Under the pieces are notes generated by a model, which was given only the letters and a program-made list of their open reading frames with translations, was not told the DNA's origin and made no database searches. This document shows, piece by piece, positions 26,678-36,001 of a stretch of DNA of 36,448 nucleotides. Every line of letters begins with the position of its first letter. Within the stretch, counting starts at the first letter, position 1. Made by a program: the position numbers and the translations under genes. The DNA is from Phycisphaerales bacterium (GTDB lineage: Bacteria; Planctomycetota; Phycisphaerae; Phycisphaerales; UBA1924): the NCBI GenBank assembly GCA_017640485.1, contig JAEPQP010000013.1:1-36448 (forward strand). Reading direction: 5' to 3'.

Positions 26678-29083
26678 TCATCCAGCAGAGAACGCCGTCA
26701 GGAACGCGGAGATATCGAAGAAATCCCAGTCACCGTCGGTATTGAAATCTCCGATGGGGTCCTCGTTCGCGAAGAGCGTGAGGAACGCGGAGATGTCAAA
26801 GAAGTCGAGTTCGCCGTCGCCGTTGATATCCGCCGGGGATCCAGGGCAGCCGATCGACTCGATCGAGAGGTCATCAATCCCCGCTTCGACGATCGATCCG
26901 TCATTAAAGTCAGACGCGATAAAGCGGACACGGATCTGGTCCAGCGGCGTGCCATCACTAGGGAGGGCAAACCGTTTCTCGACCCAAGCGTTTGCATTCT
27001 CTGTCACGATTTCGAGCGTGTCCCAAGAAGCGCCGTTGGTGTACGAGATCTCGACAAGCATCGAATCCGCATTGGGACTCGCGCCCGCGTCGTTGGAGTA
27101 CCAGCGCCAGTAGACCAGCTCGGCCCCTTCCCCGGCAGTGGTCGCGTCCATCATCGGAGAAGTCAGCGTGGTCGCGCCGCCGTCGATATCATTGGCGCCG
27201 AGCGATCCGCCCGAATCGCCATCGGTGATCCAGCAGATGGACCCGCTGTCTGTGTGATCATTCTCGGGCTGAGCCGCGGTTGCTTCCGGATCGGCGCGTT
27301 CCCAGATTCCGGTCGTCGCGGCGTCTGACGGCTGACCAACAGTCCACCCGTTCCCGCTGCTCTCCATGTCGTCTTCGAACGCGACGATCATGATCTGTGA
27401 GAGCGCCTCGAGCGGATCGGACGCACCTCCTTCTGGGAAGGTAAACGAGGCGCCGCTGAGTGAATCCGCGGTGAAGTAGTACTCCGCGATCTGCCCGCAG
27501 GGTGTGCTCGGAAGGTGAGCCGTGTAGGTCGATTCACCGCTTGGGATCATCATCACTTGCTCGAATGGGCCGCTGGATCCGATCCGTGTGTGAAGCACGG
27601 CACTGCTCGGATCGACATCGCTGACACCCGGATTCACGGTCAAGAACACCGGTGTCGGGGTATCGGCATCAAATGTCGCGATTGAGGTGTGCGAGAGCGA
27701 CATCGCTTGTGTCGTGCGAGCCGCGAACAGTTTCGCGGCTTGCCAGTTCTCCTCCGCTGTCGGAAGGATGATGCTTGGGGGTGGATTGAACCCGTCAAAT
27801 GCTCCTGAGTCCGGACGCAGCTCAAGCGTGAAACTGGTCACGCCTCGATCCTCGTAGAACCAGTCCGAACAGGTGCCCGCGGCTGGGTAGAGCTGCCAAG
27901 ACTGGATCGGGTCGTAGAACTCACCCGACACAGACTCGATGAGCGTGGACATGTCCCCTGAAAGATTGACGAAGTTCGTCCGATCGGGTTCGGGAGTCAC
28001 CAGACCATCGGCGTATCCGAGCGGCCAGAGAATGAGCTGGGAGAAACAGTGGAAGTCGATGTGTGAGACGAGGTCATCGCCGTAGCTGATGGCGAGGTTG
28101 CTCAGCGCCGTGGTCTCGGGTTCAGAGAACGGCGATCCGCCGTGGTAGATGTCTGATGAGAAACTCGACGAGGTCCCGGCACCCGCGAATTCGGTCGAGT
28201 CCCAGTTCCGGTTCAGGTCCACGCCTTCATCGGATCCCGGATTGTCCCGGCGGTTCTTGCGCCAGTAGCGTTCATCGGACCACGAGTAGAGATAGCCGTC
28301 GGGATTCAACACCGGGATGATCACAAAGCGGATCGAGCTCAGGAGCGCCTGGACTTCGGGATCCGATCCCGAATCGTCGAGCAGCTTGGACGCGATGTAT
28401 GTGACTGTCATCGGCGAAACCCACTCGCGTGCGTGCTGAGCGCCGTTCCAGATAATCACAGGACGATCCTCGGCAAGATTCCCCGGCTCGTCGGGCGCGG
28501 TGATCGTGAACGAGAAGATGTCGCGGGATTGGATCGTGTCCCCGATGTCAGCTTTGGTGACTAGATCCGGGTACGCCGCGACTTGGGTGTCCATGTACGC
28601 GTAGATGTCGGAGAGTTGTTTATACCCACTGAACCAGCTTTCATCGTGCGCGGATCCGCCGCGTTGGAAGTCGAGGGCCGGGCGATGAGCGCCGATATTG
28701 TTCTCGATCTCGAAGCGCTCTTGCTCGACGAGCGCCGACCAGTTCTGCTGCGTGTGCGCGTGGAGATCCGCGATCTGGATGATCGGGTTGACACCCAGTT
28801 TGGTGAGCGCGTCGAGATTGGCTGATTTGATCTGGAGGATGTTGTGTCCAAGTCCAGGGCGTTCGGTCCATGCGGATTCGGAGAGATCGAGCGCCTCGCG
28901 GAGCTGGAGGTGGGTGTCGATTGTGACCGCGACGACCATCTGGTCCTGATAGACCGCTGGGGGCTGGTAGGTGAGCAGATCGAGCCGCTCGATCGGTTTG
29001 GGCTTGATGCCTTGCTGAGCCATCGACAAGGAAGCAGCGAGACCAAGCACAGCGAGCATTGAACGGGAGTGGGGTATGGACAT
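26678..29083 (-). CDS. Secreted M14 zinc carboxypeptidase with dockerin-like C-terminus
   Basis: Exported enzyme of 801 aa cleaving C-terminal residues of peptides outside the cell. A signal peptide (about 1-22, ending 'SLSMAQ') leads to a propeptide-like region, then the M14 domain. The zinc motif HxxE occurs in 'QHAREW' (about 218-222), the substrate-binding 'DLNRNWD' follows, then 'SHIDFHCFSQ' with the third zinc His, and 'FTLELRPDSG' with the catalytic Glu near 420. A jelly-roll/MAM-like domain (about 575-745, 'DDMESSGNGW' to 'GIDDLSIESIGC') comes next. Last are two Asp-rich calcium-binding repeats, 'DINGDGELDFFDISAFL' and 'DFNTDGDWDFFDISAFL', like those of Phycisphaerae secreted proteins. 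ATG 29083 has GGAGAAGAG just upstream. It is divergent from the amidoligase operon. Confidence 0.92.
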   Translation of the reverse strand: MSIPHSRSMLAVLGLAASLSMAQQGIKPKPIERLDLLTYQPPAVYQDQMVVAVTIDTHLQLREALDLSESAWTERPGLGHNILQIKSANLDALTKLGVNPIIQIADLHAHTQQNWSALVEQERFEIENNIGAHRPALDFQRGGSAHDESWFSGYKQLSDIYAYMDTQVAAYPDLVTKADIGDTIQSRDIFSFTITAPDEPGNLAEDRPVIIWNGAQHAREWVSPMTVTYIASKLLDDSGSDPEVQALLSSIRFVIIPVLNPDGYLYSWSDERYWRKNRRDNPGSDEGVDLNRNWDSTEFAGAGTSSSFSSDIYHGGSPFSEPETTALSNLAISYGDDLVSHIDFHCFSQLILWPLGYADGLVTPEPDRTNFVNLSGDMSTLIESVSGEFYDPIQSWQLYPAAGTCSDWFYEDRGVTSFTLELRPDSGAFDGFNPPPSIILPTAEENWQAAKLFAARTTQAMSLSHTSIATFDADTPTPVFLTVNPGVSDVDPSSAVLHTRIGSSGPFEQVMMIPSGESTYTAHLPSTPCGQIAEYYFTADSLSGASFTFPEGGASDPLEALSQIMIVAFEDDMESSGNGWTVGQPSDAATTGIWERADPEATAAQPENDHTDSGSICWITDGDSGGSLGANDIDGGATTLTSPMMDATTAGEGAELVYWRWYSNDAGASPNADSMLVEISYTNGASWDTLEIVTENANAWVEKRFALPSDGTPLDQIRVRFIASDFNDGSIVEAGIDDLSIESIGCPGSPADINGDGELDFFDISAFLTLFANEDPIGDFNTDGDWDFFDISAFLTAFSAG

Positions 29084-29508
29084 CTCTTCTCCAGAGGGGT
29101 TCAGCACTGACGATCCAGTGCATCGGTGTGTTTCATGCGTATCGACGGGCGGCCTGCAACGGTTTGATGTTGATGGAAACCAAGACGATGCGCACTGGAT
29201 GAGTGAGCAGATGAGCGGACACAAGGTCCGAGAACTCTTCAGAATGGATCGACGACGACGCGGATCATCACGCGCAGCATGGATGATCGAGTATTCACCT
29301 TACCGCAATCTCGCCGAGAATAGACGAGAATCGGTGCAATTCTGTACGCATCCGCTGCCTGCAGGTTGCTGAATCATTCTCTGAGAGCTCGTATCCGCTG
29401 ATTCTTGGTTGCGTTCTGGACCCAAACTTGTCACAATCGGTGGGTCCGGGACCCTTGGTATCGTTCTCGTCTGTACAAGCGGTCTTTTTGGAGGGCGTCG
29501 GAGTCGGC
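29084..29508. other. 425-bp divergent region between carboxypeptidase and amidoligase operon
   Basis: I see no gene here. It must hold promoters for both directions but none matches consensus well. Small palindromes are CCTGCAGG (29358-29365) and TCTC-T-GAGA (29378-29386). The latter, in the context 'AATCATTCTCTGAGAG', weakly resembles half of a Fur-type site. The amidoligase frame is open upstream to 29428, but ATG 29509 with GGAG is preferred as its start. Confidence 0.5.
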
Positions 29509-31440
29509 ATGGGTATCCAAGAGATGAATCAAGCGGAGGGTGGTCCTGAGCATCGCGCCTCGACGCAGGGCGTGCTGACCGACCTGCGGGCCTTGGAGTA
29601 CATGCTCGAGCAGCAGATGTTCGAGACCGGCATCACACGCATCGGCGCCGAGCAAGAGCTCGCGTTTGTCGATGAAGCGATGCGTCCTGCGCCGCTCGGC
29701 CCGGAGGTGCTCGAGATCCTCAACGAAGAACGAGCAACCACCGAGATCGGACGCTTCAATCTCGAGTTCAACTGCACCCCCAAGACCTTCACACGAAGCG
29801 TGCTCTCGGACTTGCATCAGGAACTCGACGAACTGATGACCAAGGCGCAGGTCGCGTCCGAGCAGATGGGCGCGATCCCCATCCTCATCGGGATCGTCCC
29901 GACGCTCCAGCAAGAGCACCTCTCGCGTGAGTACATCACCCCCAAACCCAGGTACTACGCGCTCGACGAGCGGATCACCCAAGCGCGAGGCGGGCGCTAC
30001 GACATCCGGATCAAAGGCATCGACGAGATCAACTTCTCGCACGATTCGGTGATGCTCGAAGCGCTCAATACATCGCTCCAGCTCCACTATCAGGTCGATC
30101 CTGAGGACTTCGCAATCTCATTCAATGTCGCACAAGCGATCACCGCTCCGGTCCTCGCGGCTGCTGCGAACTCCGCGGTCCTGTTCGGGAAAAGACTTTG
30201 GCACGAAACCCGCATCGCGATCTTCGAGCAAACAGTCGATACCTCAGGACAAGACATCCCGATGCAGCGCGATGTCATCAAACGCGTCCGATTCGGGGAG
30301 CGATGGGTCGAGTCGTCGGTCTTGGAGTTGTTCAGAGCGGACATCGCCCGCTTCCGGAACATGTTCCGTGCCGATGCGGTTGAAGATTCGCTCGCGCTGG
30401 TTCAGAGCGGGGAGATCCCCAAGCTCCACGCGCTGCAGACCTACAACTCCACGCTGTATCGCTGGAATCGTCCTTGCTACGGCATCACCAACGGCAAACC
30501 CCATCTCCGCATCGAGAACCGCGTGCTCCCGGCGGGACCGACCATCATCGACGAGATCGCGAACTCCGCGTTCTGGTTCGGACTCATGAAACGGATGCCC
30601 AAGGCGTATCCGGATCTGACGGACCGTCTCCTTTTCGCGGATGCGAAAGCCAACTTCGTCTCCGCAGCACGAGCGGGACTCGATTTCAAAATGCGCTGGC
30701 TCGACGGACAAGTCATCCCGGTCCGCGACCTGATCCTCGGCGAGCTCGTCCCGATGGCGATCCAGGGACTGAGCGATGCGCAGATCAACAGCGTGGACAT
30801 CGACCGCTACATGAACATCATCAGCGAGCGCACCGAAACAGGACGAAACGGGGCGCGTTGGATGGTCTCTTCGGTTGAGCACATCCACGACCACGGCACA
30901 CGCTCCGAGCGCCTCTCGACGCTCACCGCCGGGACCATCACGAGACAGCAAGAAGGGAAGCCGGTCCACGAGTGGAGTGTCGCGGAGATCCGCGAGAGCG
31001 GAGAGTGGAGACACCACTACGCAACGGTTGGTCAGTACATGCAGACCGAACTGTTCACAGTCCGCGAAGATGAACTGATCGATCTCGCGGCTTCCATCAT
31101 GGACTGGGAGAAGATCCGTCATATCCCAGTAGAAGACGCCGAGCACAGACTCGTCGGGCTGGTGAGCTACCGCGCGCTGCTGCGATTGGTCGCGGATCCG
31201 GTCAAACGCAAGAGCGACTCGATCGCCGTCGAGGACATCATGGAGAAGAATCCGCTGTGCGTGCTTGCGTCAACGCCGACGATGGAAGCGATCAAGCTGA
31301 TGAAGGAGAACAAAGCGTCCTGTCTTCCTGTTGTACAGGCCGACGGGAAGCTGGTGGGGATAGTGACCGAGCACGATTACATGCGGATCGCGGGCAAACT
31401 GCTCGAAGATCAGCTCCAAGGCGGCAATAATTCGATGTGA
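29509..31440 (+). CDS. GCS2-type carboxylate-amine ligase fused to two CBS domains
   Basis: Predicted ATP-dependent amidoligase of the glutamine-synthetase fold (GCS2, glutamate-cysteine ligase-like), 643 aa. The catalytic start 'RIGAEQELAFVD' matches the family 'GxExE' metal-binding strand. 'EIGRFNLEFNCTP', 'SLQLHYQVDPEDF' and 'HLRIENRVLPAGPT' are further expected metal- and nucleotide-site strands within about residues 20-400. After a helical linker, two CBS motifs fill about 511-635 ('FTVREDELIDLAASIM...' and 'NPLCVLASTPTMEAIKLM'), a Bateman pair that usually binds AMP, ATP or SAM. The fusion implies energy-state control. The amino substrate is unknown; cysteine is only one possibility. 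ATG 29509 has GGAG 5 nt upstream. It heads a four-gene operon. Confidence 0.85.
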   Translation: MGIQEMNQAEGGPEHRASTQGVLTDLRALEYMLEQQMFETGITRIGAEQELAFVDEAMRPAPLGPEVLEILNEERATTEIGRFNLEFNCTPKTFTRSVLSDLHQELDELMTKAQVASEQMGAIPILIGIVPTLQQEHLSREYITPKPRYYALDERITQARGGRYDIRIKGIDEINFSHDSVMLEALNTSLQLHYQVDPEDFAISFNVAQAITAPVLAAAANSAVLFGKRLWHETRIAIFEQTVDTSGQDIPMQRDVIKRVRFGERWVESSVLELFRADIARFRNMFRADAVEDSLALVQSGEIPKLHALQTYNSTLYRWNRPCYGITNGKPHLRIENRVLPAGPTIIDEIANSAFWFGLMKRMPKAYPDLTDRLLFADAKANFVSAARAGLDFKMRWLDGQVIPVRDLILGELVPMAIQGLSDAQINSVDIDRYMNIISERTETGRNGARWMVSSVEHIHDHGTRSERLSTLTAGTITRQQEGKPVHEWSVAEIRESGEWRHHYATVGQYMQTELFTVREDELIDLAASIMDWEKIRHIPVEDAEHRLVGLVSYRALLRLVADPVKRKSDSIAVEDIMEKNPLCVLASTPTMEAIKLMKENKASCLPVVQADGKLVGIVTEHDYMRIAGKLLEDQLQGGNNSM

Positions 31441-31501
31441 GTCGTGCTGATTGTTCAGATCGCACCTGAAGTAGCCTCTGAGACCGCTCTGGAGAGTGTG
31501 T

Positions 31502-32836
31502 GTGCCGTTGACTGAGAGTCCATCCCAACCCAACACCCGGAGCGTGCAGAGTGATCCACCAAGACTCCAGATCAAGCAACGAGAGCTCGGTCGGTTCAGG
31601 GACACGCAGTCGGGTCCGACACTCGTCGTGATCGGTGGGGTCCACGGGAATGAGCCCGCCGGGCTCATCGCGGGGCAACGCGTGCTCGATCATCTCCAAT
31701 CAGTGGATGCGCATGCGTTCCAAGGCCAGTTCGTGCTGCTCGCCGGGAATATGTCGGCCCTCAACGACCATGATCCTGATTCACGCTACATCGATCACGA
31801 TCTGAATCGGCTGTGTCTCGACGCCCACTTCGCGGAGCCCTCCACGACCAGCGCCGAGCACCAAGAGATGCACGAACTCTTCAGCGTGCTGGAGTCCATC
31901 CAGCACGCAGCGAGCAACGCGGACCAAGAAATGATCGTGCTGGATCTGCACACGACGAGTTCCAATTCACGACCGGTTGTGGTGTTCGAGGATTCACTCG
32001 CGGCTCGATCACACGCGATGCGGATGCCTTGTCCGAAGTATCTGGGGATCGAAGAAGAAATCGATGGCTTGGTGATCGACGCAGTCACCAATCGTCTCGG
32101 GTGCGTGTCCTATCTGGTTGAAGGCGGACAGCACGAGGACCCGCGATCGATCGATGTCCACGAAGCCGCGATCTGGATCGCGCTGGATTCAGCGGGGATC
32201 TATCCGATTGCCCAAAGCCCCGGCGATCCCGGCGCCGTGATCCGCAAAGCTGCGATGGATCGGGAGGGAGTGGTGTACGATGTGCGCCATCGCGAACCGA
32301 TCTTGGATGAGAGCTTCACGATCTGCAACGATATCTTCAACGGCACGCACGCGATCGCAGAGAAAACCGTGCTCGCGATCCAGAGTGGTCAGCCCGTTCA
32401 TTCACCCATAACAGGACTGATTTTTCTCCCCAATATGCAGACACACAAACGAATCGGCGATGACGGATTTTTCATCGTCCGGCGCATCAGTCCGGGATGG
32501 GTCAACCTTTCTGCGAGACTCAGGAGGAAGCACTGGGTCCACCGGATGATCTTGCTGATGCCTGGCGTGTATCAGGGTGAGAGCTCGACACTGCTGGTCG
32601 ATGCGGATCTCGCGTGCGTGCTTCGTCGGCAGGTCTTTCACCTGCTCGGATACCGATTGGTTCGGCACGATGGACGCGAGGGTGGGACCGGTGTGGTGCG
32701 TTTCTTCAAGGGCATCGGCGCGTTCTGCAAAGCAATCGTTCGAGGACCGATCCGGGGTCAATACGGCGACGGTCCGGACCCATCGGATCCCCGATTCTGG
32801 ATCGTTGCTCGCCGTCGGCTCGATCAACCGATCTGA
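31502..32836 (+). CDS. Succinylglutamate desuccinylase/aspartoacylase-type M14 deacylase
   Basis: Predicted cytoplasmic zinc amidohydrolase, 444 aa, of the AstE/AspA branch of the M14 fold, which removes acyl groups from amino acids. The zinc motif HxxE is 'GGVHGNEPAG' (His48, Glu51). 'IDHDLNR' gives the substrate-binding Asn-Arg, 'VLDLHTTSS' the third zinc His, and 'LVEGGQHED' the catalytic Glu. About 140 C-terminal residues beyond the core ('ITGLIFLPNMQTHKR' onward) are rich in Arg and hydrophobics and may form a lid or docking domain. The GTG at 31502 is chosen with GGAG 7 nt upstream. It lies 61 bp after the amidoligase and 13 bp before the transpeptidase. In this setting it may hydrolyse the amide product or an acylated precursor. 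Confidence 0.87.
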   Translation: MPLTESPSQPNTRSVQSDPPRLQIKQRELGRFRDTQSGPTLVVIGGVHGNEPAGLIAGQRVLDHLQSVDAHAFQGQFVLLAGNMSALNDHDPDSRYIDHDLNRLCLDAHFAEPSTTSAEHQEMHELFSVLESIQHAASNADQEMIVLDLHTTSSNSRPVVVFEDSLAARSHAMRMPCPKYLGIEEEIDGLVIDAVTNRLGCVSYLVEGGQHEDPRSIDVHEAAIWIALDSAGIYPIAQSPGDPGAVIRKAAMDREGVVYDVRHREPILDESFTICNDIFNGTHAIAEKTVLAIQSGQPVHSPITGLIFLPNMQTHKRIGDDGFFIVRRISPGWVNLSARLRRKHWVHRMILLMPGVYQGESSTLLVDADLACVLRRQVFHLLGYRLVRHDGREGGTGVVRFFKGIGAFCKAIVRGPIRGQYGDGPDPSDPRFWIVARRRLDQPI

Positions 32837-32849
32837 TGTAGAATCGAGT

Positions 32850-34583
32850 ATGACCAGTTCACTCATCCGCGGCGTACTCCTCAGTCTTTCTTTGATCCTG
32901 TGTTCTGGATGCTCATCGACACAACGCGTCCGATCAGCAGACTCGTTCCACGCGCACTTCATGCGTGGAGCGATCGCGGCGGATCATGCGATCGCCTCCG
33001 ATGCCGGGGCGCAGATGCTCGCGATGGGCGGGAACGCGGTTGACGCCGCGGTCGCGTCTTCCTTTGCGCTGTCGGTCGTTCGTCCATATTCGTGCGGGAT
33101 CGGTGGCGGGGGGTTCATGGTTATCCATCTCCCCAATGATCCAACCCACGGCTATGTCCAGACCGCGATCAACTACCGTGAGACTTCGCCGTACGAAGCG
33201 GACTGGTTTGCAAGCGGCGTGTCGATGCGAGAAGGTGGTTCGAGTGTTGCTGTTCCTGGAACAGTCGCGGGATTGCTGTATGCCCTCGAGCGGTACGGGA
33301 CACTCGATCGATCGATTGTCCTGCAACCCGCGATCGATGCGGCGATTCATGGGTTTGAGGTTGACGAGCATTATCGATCAGCCGCAGAGTATTTGATTGC
33401 AGAGCATGATGGTGGAGCTGATGAGCTGCCGTCTGGGATGGAGTTGATCTGGGAGAAGTTCCTCAGGAAGGGCCAGGTCCAAGTCGGAGATCGGATCACC
33501 AACCCAGAGCACGCCCGCGCCCTTGAACTGATCTCGCGCGATGGTCTCAAAGCATGGACGCACGGCGAGATCGGGCATGCCGTGGTCCAAGCAATCACCC
33601 AAGCCGGTGGCGGGATGACCCTGTCGGATCTCGCTGGATATCAAGTTTCTGAAACTCAGCCGATCGTGGGGGAGGTTGATGGGAGGCGCCTGGTTGGGAT
33701 GCCTCCGCCATCGAGTGGGGGGGTCACGATGTTCCAGGCGCTCGGGATCATGGAGCACGCGGGCTACGATTTTTCCAATCGAACACTCAATGCATCGCGC
33801 TCGCACCTGATGGTCGAATCGCTCAAACACGCGTTCGCGGATCGTTCGCGATACCTTGCGGATCCAGCGTTCGTCCAGCTCCCGATCGATCAGATGCTCG
33901 ATCAGTCCAACATCTCGCGTATGGCAGATTCGATTAATCCAACTACGCATCAATCGGATCACTACGGCACCGCTCTCGCGCTCCCGGATGACGACGGGAC
34001 CAGTCATGTGAGCGTGATCGACCAGTGGGGGGGTGGGGTCGCGATGACCGAGACCATCAACTTTGAGTTCGGTTCGAAGGTCGGTGTCCCCGAGTTTGGG
34101 TTCGCGCTCAACAATGAGATGGACGATTTCACCAGCCCGAATGCCCAGCCTAATGGGTACGGCTTGGTCCAATCGGATCGGAACCTGCCGCAGATCGGGA
34201 AGCGTCCGCTCTCGAGCATGTCACCGACCATCGTGCTCGACGAGGATGGTCAGATCCTTGCGATCGCCGGCGCCTCAGGAGGTCCCCGGATCATCACCGG
34301 GACGATGCAGACGCTGCTCAATGTGATGGCGGGAATGGACGCAGGACTCGCGGTCGCGGCGCCTCGCGTGCACCACCAGTGGAAACCCAACGCGATCATG
34401 TACGAGCGAGGGTACAGCGTTCATGTACGATCAGTCTTGGAAGACCCCGCGCGTTTCAATCACAAAACCGGGTCTCTGGATGCGGTGGTCGGGAATGTGC
34501 AGGTCATCGTGCGTGATGATGCGGGCGGGTATCAAGCCGCGAGCGATCCACGCAAGGGCGGGCGTCCGAGCGGCATAGACTAG
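32850..34583 (+). CDS. Gamma-glutamyltranspeptidase, lipoprotein type
   Basis: N-terminal nucleophile hydrolase, 577 aa, that cleaves or transfers gamma-glutamyl groups in the periplasm. The signal peptide runs to 'LILCSGC', giving a likely lipid anchor at Cys21, although Cys at -3 is an atypical lipobox. The large-subunit motif 'GGNAVDAAVA' and 'GIGGGGFMVIH' are present. Autocleavage would occur before Thr384 in 'DDGTSHVSVID', followed by small-subunit landmarks 'NNEMDDF' and 'RPLSSMSPTIV'. The gene overlaps nothing and is 13 bp after the deacylase and 5 bp before the MFS gene. The start is fixed by the signal peptide, as the ribosome site is weak. It is the third gene of the gamma-glutamyl operon and would act on the exported or imported product. 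Confidence 0.92.
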   Translation: MTSSLIRGVLLSLSLILCSGCSSTQRVRSADSFHAHFMRGAIAADHAIASDAGAQMLAMGGNAVDAAVASSFALSVVRPYSCGIGGGGFMVIHLPNDPTHGYVQTAINYRETSPYEADWFASGVSMREGGSSVAVPGTVAGLLYALERYGTLDRSIVLQPAIDAAIHGFEVDEHYRSAAEYLIAEHDGGADELPSGMELIWEKFLRKGQVQVGDRITNPEHARALELISRDGLKAWTHGEIGHAVVQAITQAGGGMTLSDLAGYQVSETQPIVGEVDGRRLVGMPPPSSGGVTMFQALGIMEHAGYDFSNRTLNASRSHLMVESLKHAFADRSRYLADPAFVQLPIDQMLDQSNISRMADSINPTTHQSDHYGTALALPDDDGTSHVSVIDQWGGGVAMTETINFEFGSKVGVPEFGFALNNEMDDFTSPNAQPNGYGLVQSDRNLPQIGKRPLSSMSPTIVLDEDGQILAIAGASGGPRIITGTMQTLLNVMAGMDAGLAVAAPRVHHQWKPNAIMYERGYSVHVRSVLEDPARFNHKTGSLDAVVGNVQVIVRDDAGGYQAASDPRKGGRPSGID

Positions 34584-34588
34584 GGGCT

Positions 34589-36001
34589 ATGTCTTCCGCT
34601 CCAGATCCCGGATCCATCCCCTCCAGACCCAAACTCCGAGCCGGGGTCACGATCGGTGCGCACTTCGTTGTGGATGTGTTCTCGTTTGTCGGGATCGCGG
34701 TCCTCCCGATGCTCGCGGTGCTGCTCGACATCCGTCCAGAACAGAAGGCGCTGCTGCTCGCGATGGGTGCGGTCTTCTCTGGGATGATCCAGCCGCTCGT
34801 CGCGTGGGCGAGCGATAAACTCGATACGCGTGCGCTCGGGACGATCGGATTCGTCGTTGCCGTGCTCTGTATCGGGAATCTCGGGATGGCGCGGAACTTC
34901 ACTGAACTCGCGATCCTGTACAGTTTGGGTGCGATGGGGGTCGGAGCATTCCATCCGCCCGCGGCCGCGACGGTTGGTCAACTCGGGGGCGCTCGACGAT
35001 CCGCGTATGTCGCCGTGTTCTTCCTCGCAGGGATGGTTGGTGGGATCGTCGGGAATGTGTTCACCCCGATGTATGTGGGATGGATGACCCCCGGCGCGGT
35101 CGAAGCGACGCTGGATACCCCGATGATCCCAGCGGGTGATGCACGACAAGGGTTGCTGGCTGTGCGCTGGTTCATCCCGATCGGTCTGCTCGGCGCGTTC
35201 TTGCTCGCACGCGCGATCCATGGCTCGGGTCATCGGCATCACGGCGCGCACGAGCATCAGAACAGCTGGGAGCCACGCGAGCGTCGAGGACGCTGGATCG
35301 CGGTCTGGGTGATGTATGCGAGTAATGTCCTGCGATTCACAGTCAATATGGCGCTGGTGTACCTCTTCACAGAATGGGCATCTCGTTCTGTGCTTGAACT
35401 GAACCAGGCACAGGAACTCAACGAGCAGCTCGGGATCGAAGCATCGCGAATCAACGGCATGCTCCAAGCATCGATGCAGATCGGGATGGGTGCGGGGGGA
35501 CTGACGCTCGGATTCATCCTCGCGGCACGATTCGAGAAACTGGTCTTTGTGGTCCTCCCGATGCTGGGCGCACTGAGTATCACGATGATCCCATCGATGT
35601 CTTCATTTGATGGAGAACTCGCACGATGGAGCGTCATGGGCGCTGCCGTGCTTTCTGGGATCGGTTTTGGAGCGGTAATCCCTGTGAGCCTGTCGCTCGC
35701 GCAGCGGCTGCTCCCGCACCGGACGAGTTTGGTATCAGGACTGATGCTCGGCGGCGCGTGGGCGCTGTCGTTCGTCGGACCGATCGGCGCGGAGATCGTA
35801 CAGAACGGGCTGAGTCAGAAACCCTCAGTGCCGAGCTTTGCGCTCAAACTGGTCGATGCACTGCCTTCGGGACTCCGTGATGGACTCATGAACGGCTACG
35901 GCTTGGACACCACTTTCTACTGCACTGCCGTGGTCCTCGCGATCGCGGGATTAATTGCAATCTTTTTACCCCACCGTTGTATTTTGAGCAGCGCCAACTG
36001 A
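34589..36001 (+). CDS. MFS transporter, fosmidomycin-resistance (Fsr)-like
   Basis: Inner-membrane major-facilitator transporter of 470 aa with about 11-12 hydrophobic helices. The opening 'GAHFVVDVFSFVGIAVLPML' and 'GVGAFHPPAAATVG' in the fourth helix match the Fsr subfamily, whose 'HxxxD' and 'FHPxxA' motifs are diagnostic. A His-rich loop follows the sixth helix ('GSGHRHHGAHEHQ'), which could bind metal. Fsr proteins are mostly exporters of small phosphonates or drugs; substrates of relatives vary. Here, 5 bp after the transpeptidase gene and last in the operon, it is the natural candidate to move the operon's product across the membrane. Family assignment is good, substrate is inference. 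Confidence 0.85.
   Translation: MSSAPDPGSIPSRPKLRAGVTIGAHFVVDVFSFVGIAVLPMLAVLLDIRPEQKALLLAMGAVFSGMIQPLVAWASDKLDTRALGTIGFVVAVLCIGNLGMARNFTELAILYSLGAMGVGAFHPPAAATVGQLGGARRSAYVAVFFLAGMVGGIVGNVFTPMYVGWMTPGAVEATLDTPMIPAGDARQGLLAVRWFIPIGLLGAFLLARAIHGSGHRHHGAHEHQNSWEPRERRGRWIAVWVMYASNVLRFTVNMALVYLFTEWASRSVLELNQAQELNEQLGIEASRINGMLQASMQIGMGAGGLTLGFILAARFEKLVFVVLPMLGALSITMIPSMSSFDGELARWSVMGAAVLSGIGFGAVIPVSLSLAQRLLPHRTSLVSGLMLGGAWALSFVGPIGAEIVQNGLSQKPSVPSFALKLVDALPSGLRDGLMNGYGLDTTFYCTAVVLAIAGLIAIFLPHRCILSSAN

Follow-up and report, generated by a model that had tools for sequence, protein, structure and literature searches.

A GCS2-fold ligase paired with an AstE-type hydrolase in Planctomycetota and Bacteroidota: a possible make-and-break cycle for a gamma-glutamyl dipeptide

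The locus and its conserved pair

We studied a 36,448-nucleotide stretch of DNA (the window) from the 250-contig genome of a Phycisphaerales bacterium (G000, 92.6% complete), in which four genes lie in one direction on the forward strand. The first (29,509-31,440, ATG start) encodes a GCS2-type ATP-dependent ligase, whose ligase domain (residues 40-483, approximately) is followed at the C-terminus by a pair of CBS domains with the adenosyl-nucleotide sensor fold (residues 507-636, at 31,027-31,416 on the forward strand). The second (31,502-32,836, GTG start) encodes a zinc hydrolase of the AstE/aspartoacylase type, and these two genes are the pair that concerns us most. They are followed by a gamma-glutamyltranspeptidase, or GGT (32,850-34,583, ATG start), which has an N-terminal signal and is probably a lipoprotein, and by a transporter of the major facilitator superfamily, or MFS (34,589-36,001, ATG start). 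The spacing between the four genes is 61, 13, and 5 bp. An earlier note, made from the DNA alone, had described this arrangement, and our analysis bears out all four reading frames and the gaps (genes were called with custom scripts rather than with a gene finder). Every protein exceeds a Pfam cut-off: the ligase with GCS2 (23.5 bits for a cut-off of 21, which is marginal) and with CBS (89.3 bits), the hydrolase with AstE_AspA_cat (PF24827, 63.2 bits for 25), the GGT with G_glu_transpept (461.9 for 27), and the transporter with MFS_1 (54.4 for 33.4). The CBS domains had also been named in the earlier note, whose mechanism made no use of them. PADLOC had no match for any of the four proteins, and scans for promoters and terminators gave matches at chance level.

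Within the genus, the ligase is present in 20 of 21 genomes, counting our own, and in all 20 of the corresponding loci the hydrolase adjoins it. Because the whole block is syntenic in the genus, this adjacency is weak evidence by itself; the persistence of the pair across two phyla is stronger. We found the ligase in 83 of 392 genomes of Planctomycetota and in 88 of 296 genomes of Bacteroidota, and the hydrolase comes directly after it in 50 of 62 loci from the former and in 27 of 42 loci from the latter. (The Planctomycetota loci are from 40 of the 83 ligase genomes, with our own and G034 set aside, plus 20 loci from the genus, family, and order, the window, and L011. For Bacteroidota, 40 were selected from the 88 matching genomes to span the range of identity, and G420 (L015) and G421 (L012) were added. 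L105 ends right after the ligase and was scored among the 12 Planctomycetota loci that lack the hydrolase.) On a FastTree phylogeny of the 104 ligases, 103 of them labelled, the state of adjacency changes at least 11 times, and adjacent pairs occur to either side of the deepest split; the tree came with a long-branch warning.

The two genes are also inherited together. With a threshold of 200 bits for the hydrolase profile, 62 of the 83 Planctomycetota genomes with the ligase have the hydrolase, versus 2 of the 309 without it (Fisher P = 3.7e-51, uncorrected for kinship), and two further ligase-less genomes have weaker matches, at 91-106 bits. A genome with the hydrolase thus nearly always has the ligase, while the reverse does not hold, as 21 genomes have the ligase without the hydrolase. 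The genes are side by side in 51 of the 62 genomes that have both and unlinked in 11. The neighbours of ligases that lack the hydrolase share no common partner; in one such locus, the gene after the ligase (L103:11,388-12,221, plus strand) resembles, on inspection by eye, a nitrilase-type amidase. Also, two tandem ligase genes precede the hydrolase in 5 of the 42 Bacteroidota loci (L161, L163, L164, L167, and L194). We rejected as partners the other genes that follow the pair in Bacteroidota (by eye, segregation, pseudouridine synthase, and alpha/beta-hydrolase-like genes), which are restricted to lineages and look like local synteny.

The hydrolase sometimes has another ligase beside it. For 15 hydrolase genes that were unlinked to the ligase or were second copies, the only conspicuous neighbours were a BesA-like ATP-grasp/PGM1_C ligase and, next to L199, L201, and L203, a PPK2 gene (scanned in L199 only). 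In L199 and L207, from genomes G139 and G142, the 3' end of the hydrolase gene overlaps the frame of the BesA-like ligase (L199:6,245-7,771, minus strand; L207:8,644-10,179, plus strand). Both of these genomes also carry the GCS2 ligase. The best NCBIfam match for the two genes is the glutamate ligase BesA, at 156 and 158 of 750 bits, and BesA makes a gamma link. Across the 392 genomes, BesA-like genes reach at least 398 bits in 12 and E ≤ 0.001 in 15. In nine of the 12, the GCS2 ligase is present as well, which kinship may explain.

The two enzymes

Our assignment of the ligase to a family rests mainly on its fold, because PF04107 found nothing at E ≤ 0.001 in a six-frame search of its genome. 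By fold, it is matched best by glutamate-cysteine ligases and YbdK and next by bifunctional glutathione synthetases and Dop/PafA, which places it in the GCS2 (glutamate-cysteine ligase) fold at 14-18% identity to the solved members. Eight residues (E48, E50, E79, E86, H193, R334, E336, and R338) are invariant across the 51 rows of the ligase alignment, and we take them to be residues that handle metal and phosphate. When we searched solved structures by sequence, the ligase profile had no match and the window's own protein matched CBS domains only. Furthermore, it lies under the cut-off of every NCBIfam ligase model that we compared: the EgtA model (TIGR03444) reached 12.1 of 370.8 bits with residues 1-500, and the YbdK model (TIGR02050) was not listed at E ≤ 0.1, with 25.1 of 176.4 bits for the best of five scanned relatives. 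Unlike the plant-type glutamate-cysteine ligase, YbdK, and EgtA, this ligase has a CBS pair and is paired with an AstE-type hydrolase. The CBS pair suggests that the ligase is controlled by a nucleotide. One group of Bacteroidota ligases, at 32-35% identity, is of a length that leaves no room for CBS domains, and the member that we scanned had GCS2 only. Actinobacterial relatives in two plasmid records (L140 and L141; 37-38% identical across some 70% of the query) do not have CBS domains either.

The hydrolase belongs with the AstE/AspA catalytic domain by its PF24827 score, and its zinc residues, H49, E52, and H151, are invariant. An N-R pair is invariant too; presumably, it corresponds to the residues that bind the substrate's carboxylate in ASPA. 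Its fold matches are AstE, EutE, ASPA, and CphZ, and the best matches that have names are mostly deacylases of N-acyl amino acids (AstE, EutE/DoeB, ASPA, and aminoacylase 3). It differs from AstE, aspartoacylase, EutE/DoeB, and CphZ in several ways. It scores below the cut-offs for succinylglutamate desuccinylase, or AstE (TIGR03242, 30.6 of 305.65 bits), and for aspartoacylase (NF002601, 55.7 of 180 bits); beyond about residue 345, it has an additional C-terminal part, which the fold search barely covers; and its genetic partner is a GCS-fold ligase. The hydrolase looks cytoplasmic.

The transpeptidase and the transporter

The GGT is a full member of its family (395.8 bits for TIGR00066, over the cut-off of 357.85), and its nucleophile, Thr384, aligns with the first residue of the solved small chains. 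In the window and in the orthologues from the genus, the N-terminus is hydrophobic and ends in a cysteine, as in a lipoprotein signal. The transporter had been called Fsr-like, and this label found no support: there was no match among PDB sequences at E ≤ 0.1 and otherwise there were general MFS matches only (the comparison included no named Fsr model). Its proposed role in export is guesswork, and uptake is as likely.

These two genes are local additions to the pair. The GGT comes after the hydrolase in 15 of the 104 loci (12 of 18 genus loci plus L100, L104, and L106, from two other genera of the family), the transporter is near the ligase in 15 of the 104 (14 genus loci plus L100), and all of these are in the window's family. 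We therefore reject the four genes as a conserved unit. (GGT-like matches in L136, on the opposite strand, and upstream in L161 and L163, at 26% identity, are not this arrangement.) In 12 genus loci, the four genes stand side by side, and they do so too in L100, which is from another genus and has all four on one strand with frames touching or overlapping; the absence of such adjacency from every related genome, which the earlier note had named as a refutation, is thus not what we see. On the other hand, L080 and L093 keep the transporter without the GGT, and L090 and L095 have neither, while all four of these loci keep the ligase and hydrolase. Of the full four-gene cycle of synthesis, export, trimming, and breakdown that had been proposed, what survives is a GCS-fold ligase tied genetically to an AstE-type hydrolase and followed by a GGT with an export signal; what does not survive is the idea of one conserved pathway.

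It is possible, if rather doubtful, that the GGT and the transporter are mere neighbours of the pair and share no pathway with it. Both are restricted to the window's family, in which longer blocks are also syntenic, and both can be missing while the pair stays (L090 and L095). Also, G002 and G010 carry a GGT at other sites, while the window's GGT is the only one in its genome and G006 has a second. Yet in L104 and L106 the GGT comes after the hydrolase at sites for which the gene-order table shows none of the families from upstream in the window's block, and the spacing in the window and in L100 is short or overlapping. And GGT is the one enzyme class that would be expected if the pair's product were a gamma-glutamyl compound.

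Upstream of the ligase lies a divergent gene for a secreted M14 carboxypeptidase with a dockerin-type C-terminus (26,678-29,224, minus strand; Peptidase_M14, 241.7 bits; dockerin_GC, 34.2 bits). In the genus loci and in L100 alike, it is transcribed away from the ligase, and several genus loci have a second copy behind the first. We did not count it in the pair.

What the pair may do

GCS-fold enzymes use ATP to activate the gamma-carboxylate of glutamate. We propose, with a probability of roughly 0.55, that the pair is a two-enzyme make-and-break cycle in which a gamma-glutamyl dipeptide is made and then cut, and which the GGT and the transporter extend in the window's family. The ligase would activate the gamma-carboxylate of glutamate, or of a close analogue, as an acyl phosphate and would couple it to an amino acid through the latter's amino group. 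The CBS pair would bind an adenosine nucleotide and switch the ligase with the energy state or with a nucleotide signal. The zinc hydrolase would take the ligase's product, which would be an N-acyl amino acid, and release the free amino acids from it in the cytoplasm. The secreted GGT of the window's family would cut the compound outside the inner membrane, and in the genus the MFS carrier would move the compound or its pieces, in one direction or the other. The simplest compound that would suit both enzymes is a gamma-glutamyl amino acid. The presence of GGT, a gamma-glutamyl enzyme, after the hydrolase in three genera of the family agrees with such a product, and the overlap of the hydrolase gene with a BesA-like ligase in two genomes also speaks for the proposal. 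What we observe is the order of the genes, their shared inheritance, the folds, and active-site residues that are intact; the gamma-glutamyl bond, the amino acid as acceptor, the control through CBS, the direction of transport, and the match between the hydrolase's substrate and the ligase's product are inferred.

Several observations weigh against this proposal. The hydrolase is absent at 200 bits from 21 of the 83 ligase genomes and is not next to the ligase in 27 of the 104 loci, so it is not essential to the ligase's function. The plasmid-borne ligases of L140 and L141 stand alone, with no AstE-type neighbour annotated in a gene table that is incomplete. The GCS2 match is marginal and no solved structure was matched by the sequence profile; the BesA match is far under its cut-off; and we know of no enzyme activity for either subfamily.

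An unlikely alternative is that the hydrolase is a supplier, which removes an acetyl, succinyl, or other group from an N-acyl amino acid so that the freed amino acid becomes the ligase's substrate. This would suit the deacylases among its fold matches, and co-inheritance fits supply as well as it fits breakdown. If the substrate has another source, then the 21 ligase genomes without the hydrolase fit too. However, no N-acylating enzyme recurs as a neighbour in the gene-order tables, and in two genomes the hydrolase is also beside a second, unrelated type of ligase. Furthermore, CphZ is an AstE-type enzyme that cuts a side-chain-linked dipeptide (PMC10206079), so the fold is not confined to deacylation.

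We consider it improbable that the ligase is a glutamate-cysteine ligase whose product, gamma-glutamylcysteine, is the lineage's low-molecular-weight thiol, with the hydrolase and GGT recycling cysteine. The fold is nearest to glutamate-cysteine ligases and YbdK. In the window's genome, gshB reaches 55.6 of 299.05 bits and no BshA is over the cut-off, and none of the 10 genomes of the family has BshA. A 2018 paper states that no thiol of this kind has been documented or predicted for Planctomycetes (PMC6282198); in contrast, BshA was over the cut-off in 35 of our 80 Planctomycetota genomes. Those 80 are 40 of the 83 with the ligase and 40 of the 309 others, by list order, and BshA was present in 23 and 12 of them, respectively (Fisher P = 0.02). 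BshA was also over the cut-off in 288 of the 296 Bacteroidota, and the 8 genomes without it all fall outside the 88 that carry the ligase. The ligase is thus no substitute for bacillithiol, and a thiol product, which the earlier note had suggested, is unlikely in general. The poor EgtA score also speaks against it. Nevertheless, the compound may have a thiol role in the window's family. More improbable still is that the two enzymes add glutamate to proteins or peptides and remove it again, in the manner of PafA and Dop with Pup or of the glutamylases and deglutamylases that act on tails.

How does the make-and-break cycle compare with known systems? It resembles the gamma-glutamyl cycle in that, in the window's family, a GCS-fold ligase and a true GGT share an operon, and it differs in that the window's genome has no gshB over the cut-off. 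To our knowledge, the usual cycle of synthesis, export, cleavage by GGT, and uptake has no AstE-type enzyme. Cyanophycin breakdown (CphB, CphZ) does have one, but there the dipeptide comes from a polymer that an ATP-grasp enzyme makes, and here the partner is a GCS-fold ligase. The folds and the class of chemistry are known, while the combination and its product appear to be undescribed. Our searches of the open-licence literature turned up no account of the pair, although a 2009 survey of amidoligases may mention it.

Tentatively, we would extend the proposal to both phyla: Planctomycetota and Bacteroidota may share a gamma-glutamyl dipeptide cycle, switched through CBS domains and gated by nucleotides, with a dedicated AstE-type hydrolase, whose product could be a cytoplasmic reserve, solute, or signal. 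GGT would extend the cycle to the periplasm in the window's family, and the compound may serve as a thiol where bacillithiol is absent. The ligase's presence in 83 of 392 genomes of Planctomycetota and in 88 of 296 of Bacteroidota, with the same hydrolase as its usual neighbour, suggests a widely made and controlled metabolite that is apparently unnamed. The carriers include many common environmental bacteria and some that look host-associated. The pair is also a ready assay, as one enzyme would make the compound and the other would identify it by cutting. And in the window's family, with neither BshA nor, in the window's own genome, gshB, the cycle would bear on redox and on amino acid storage.
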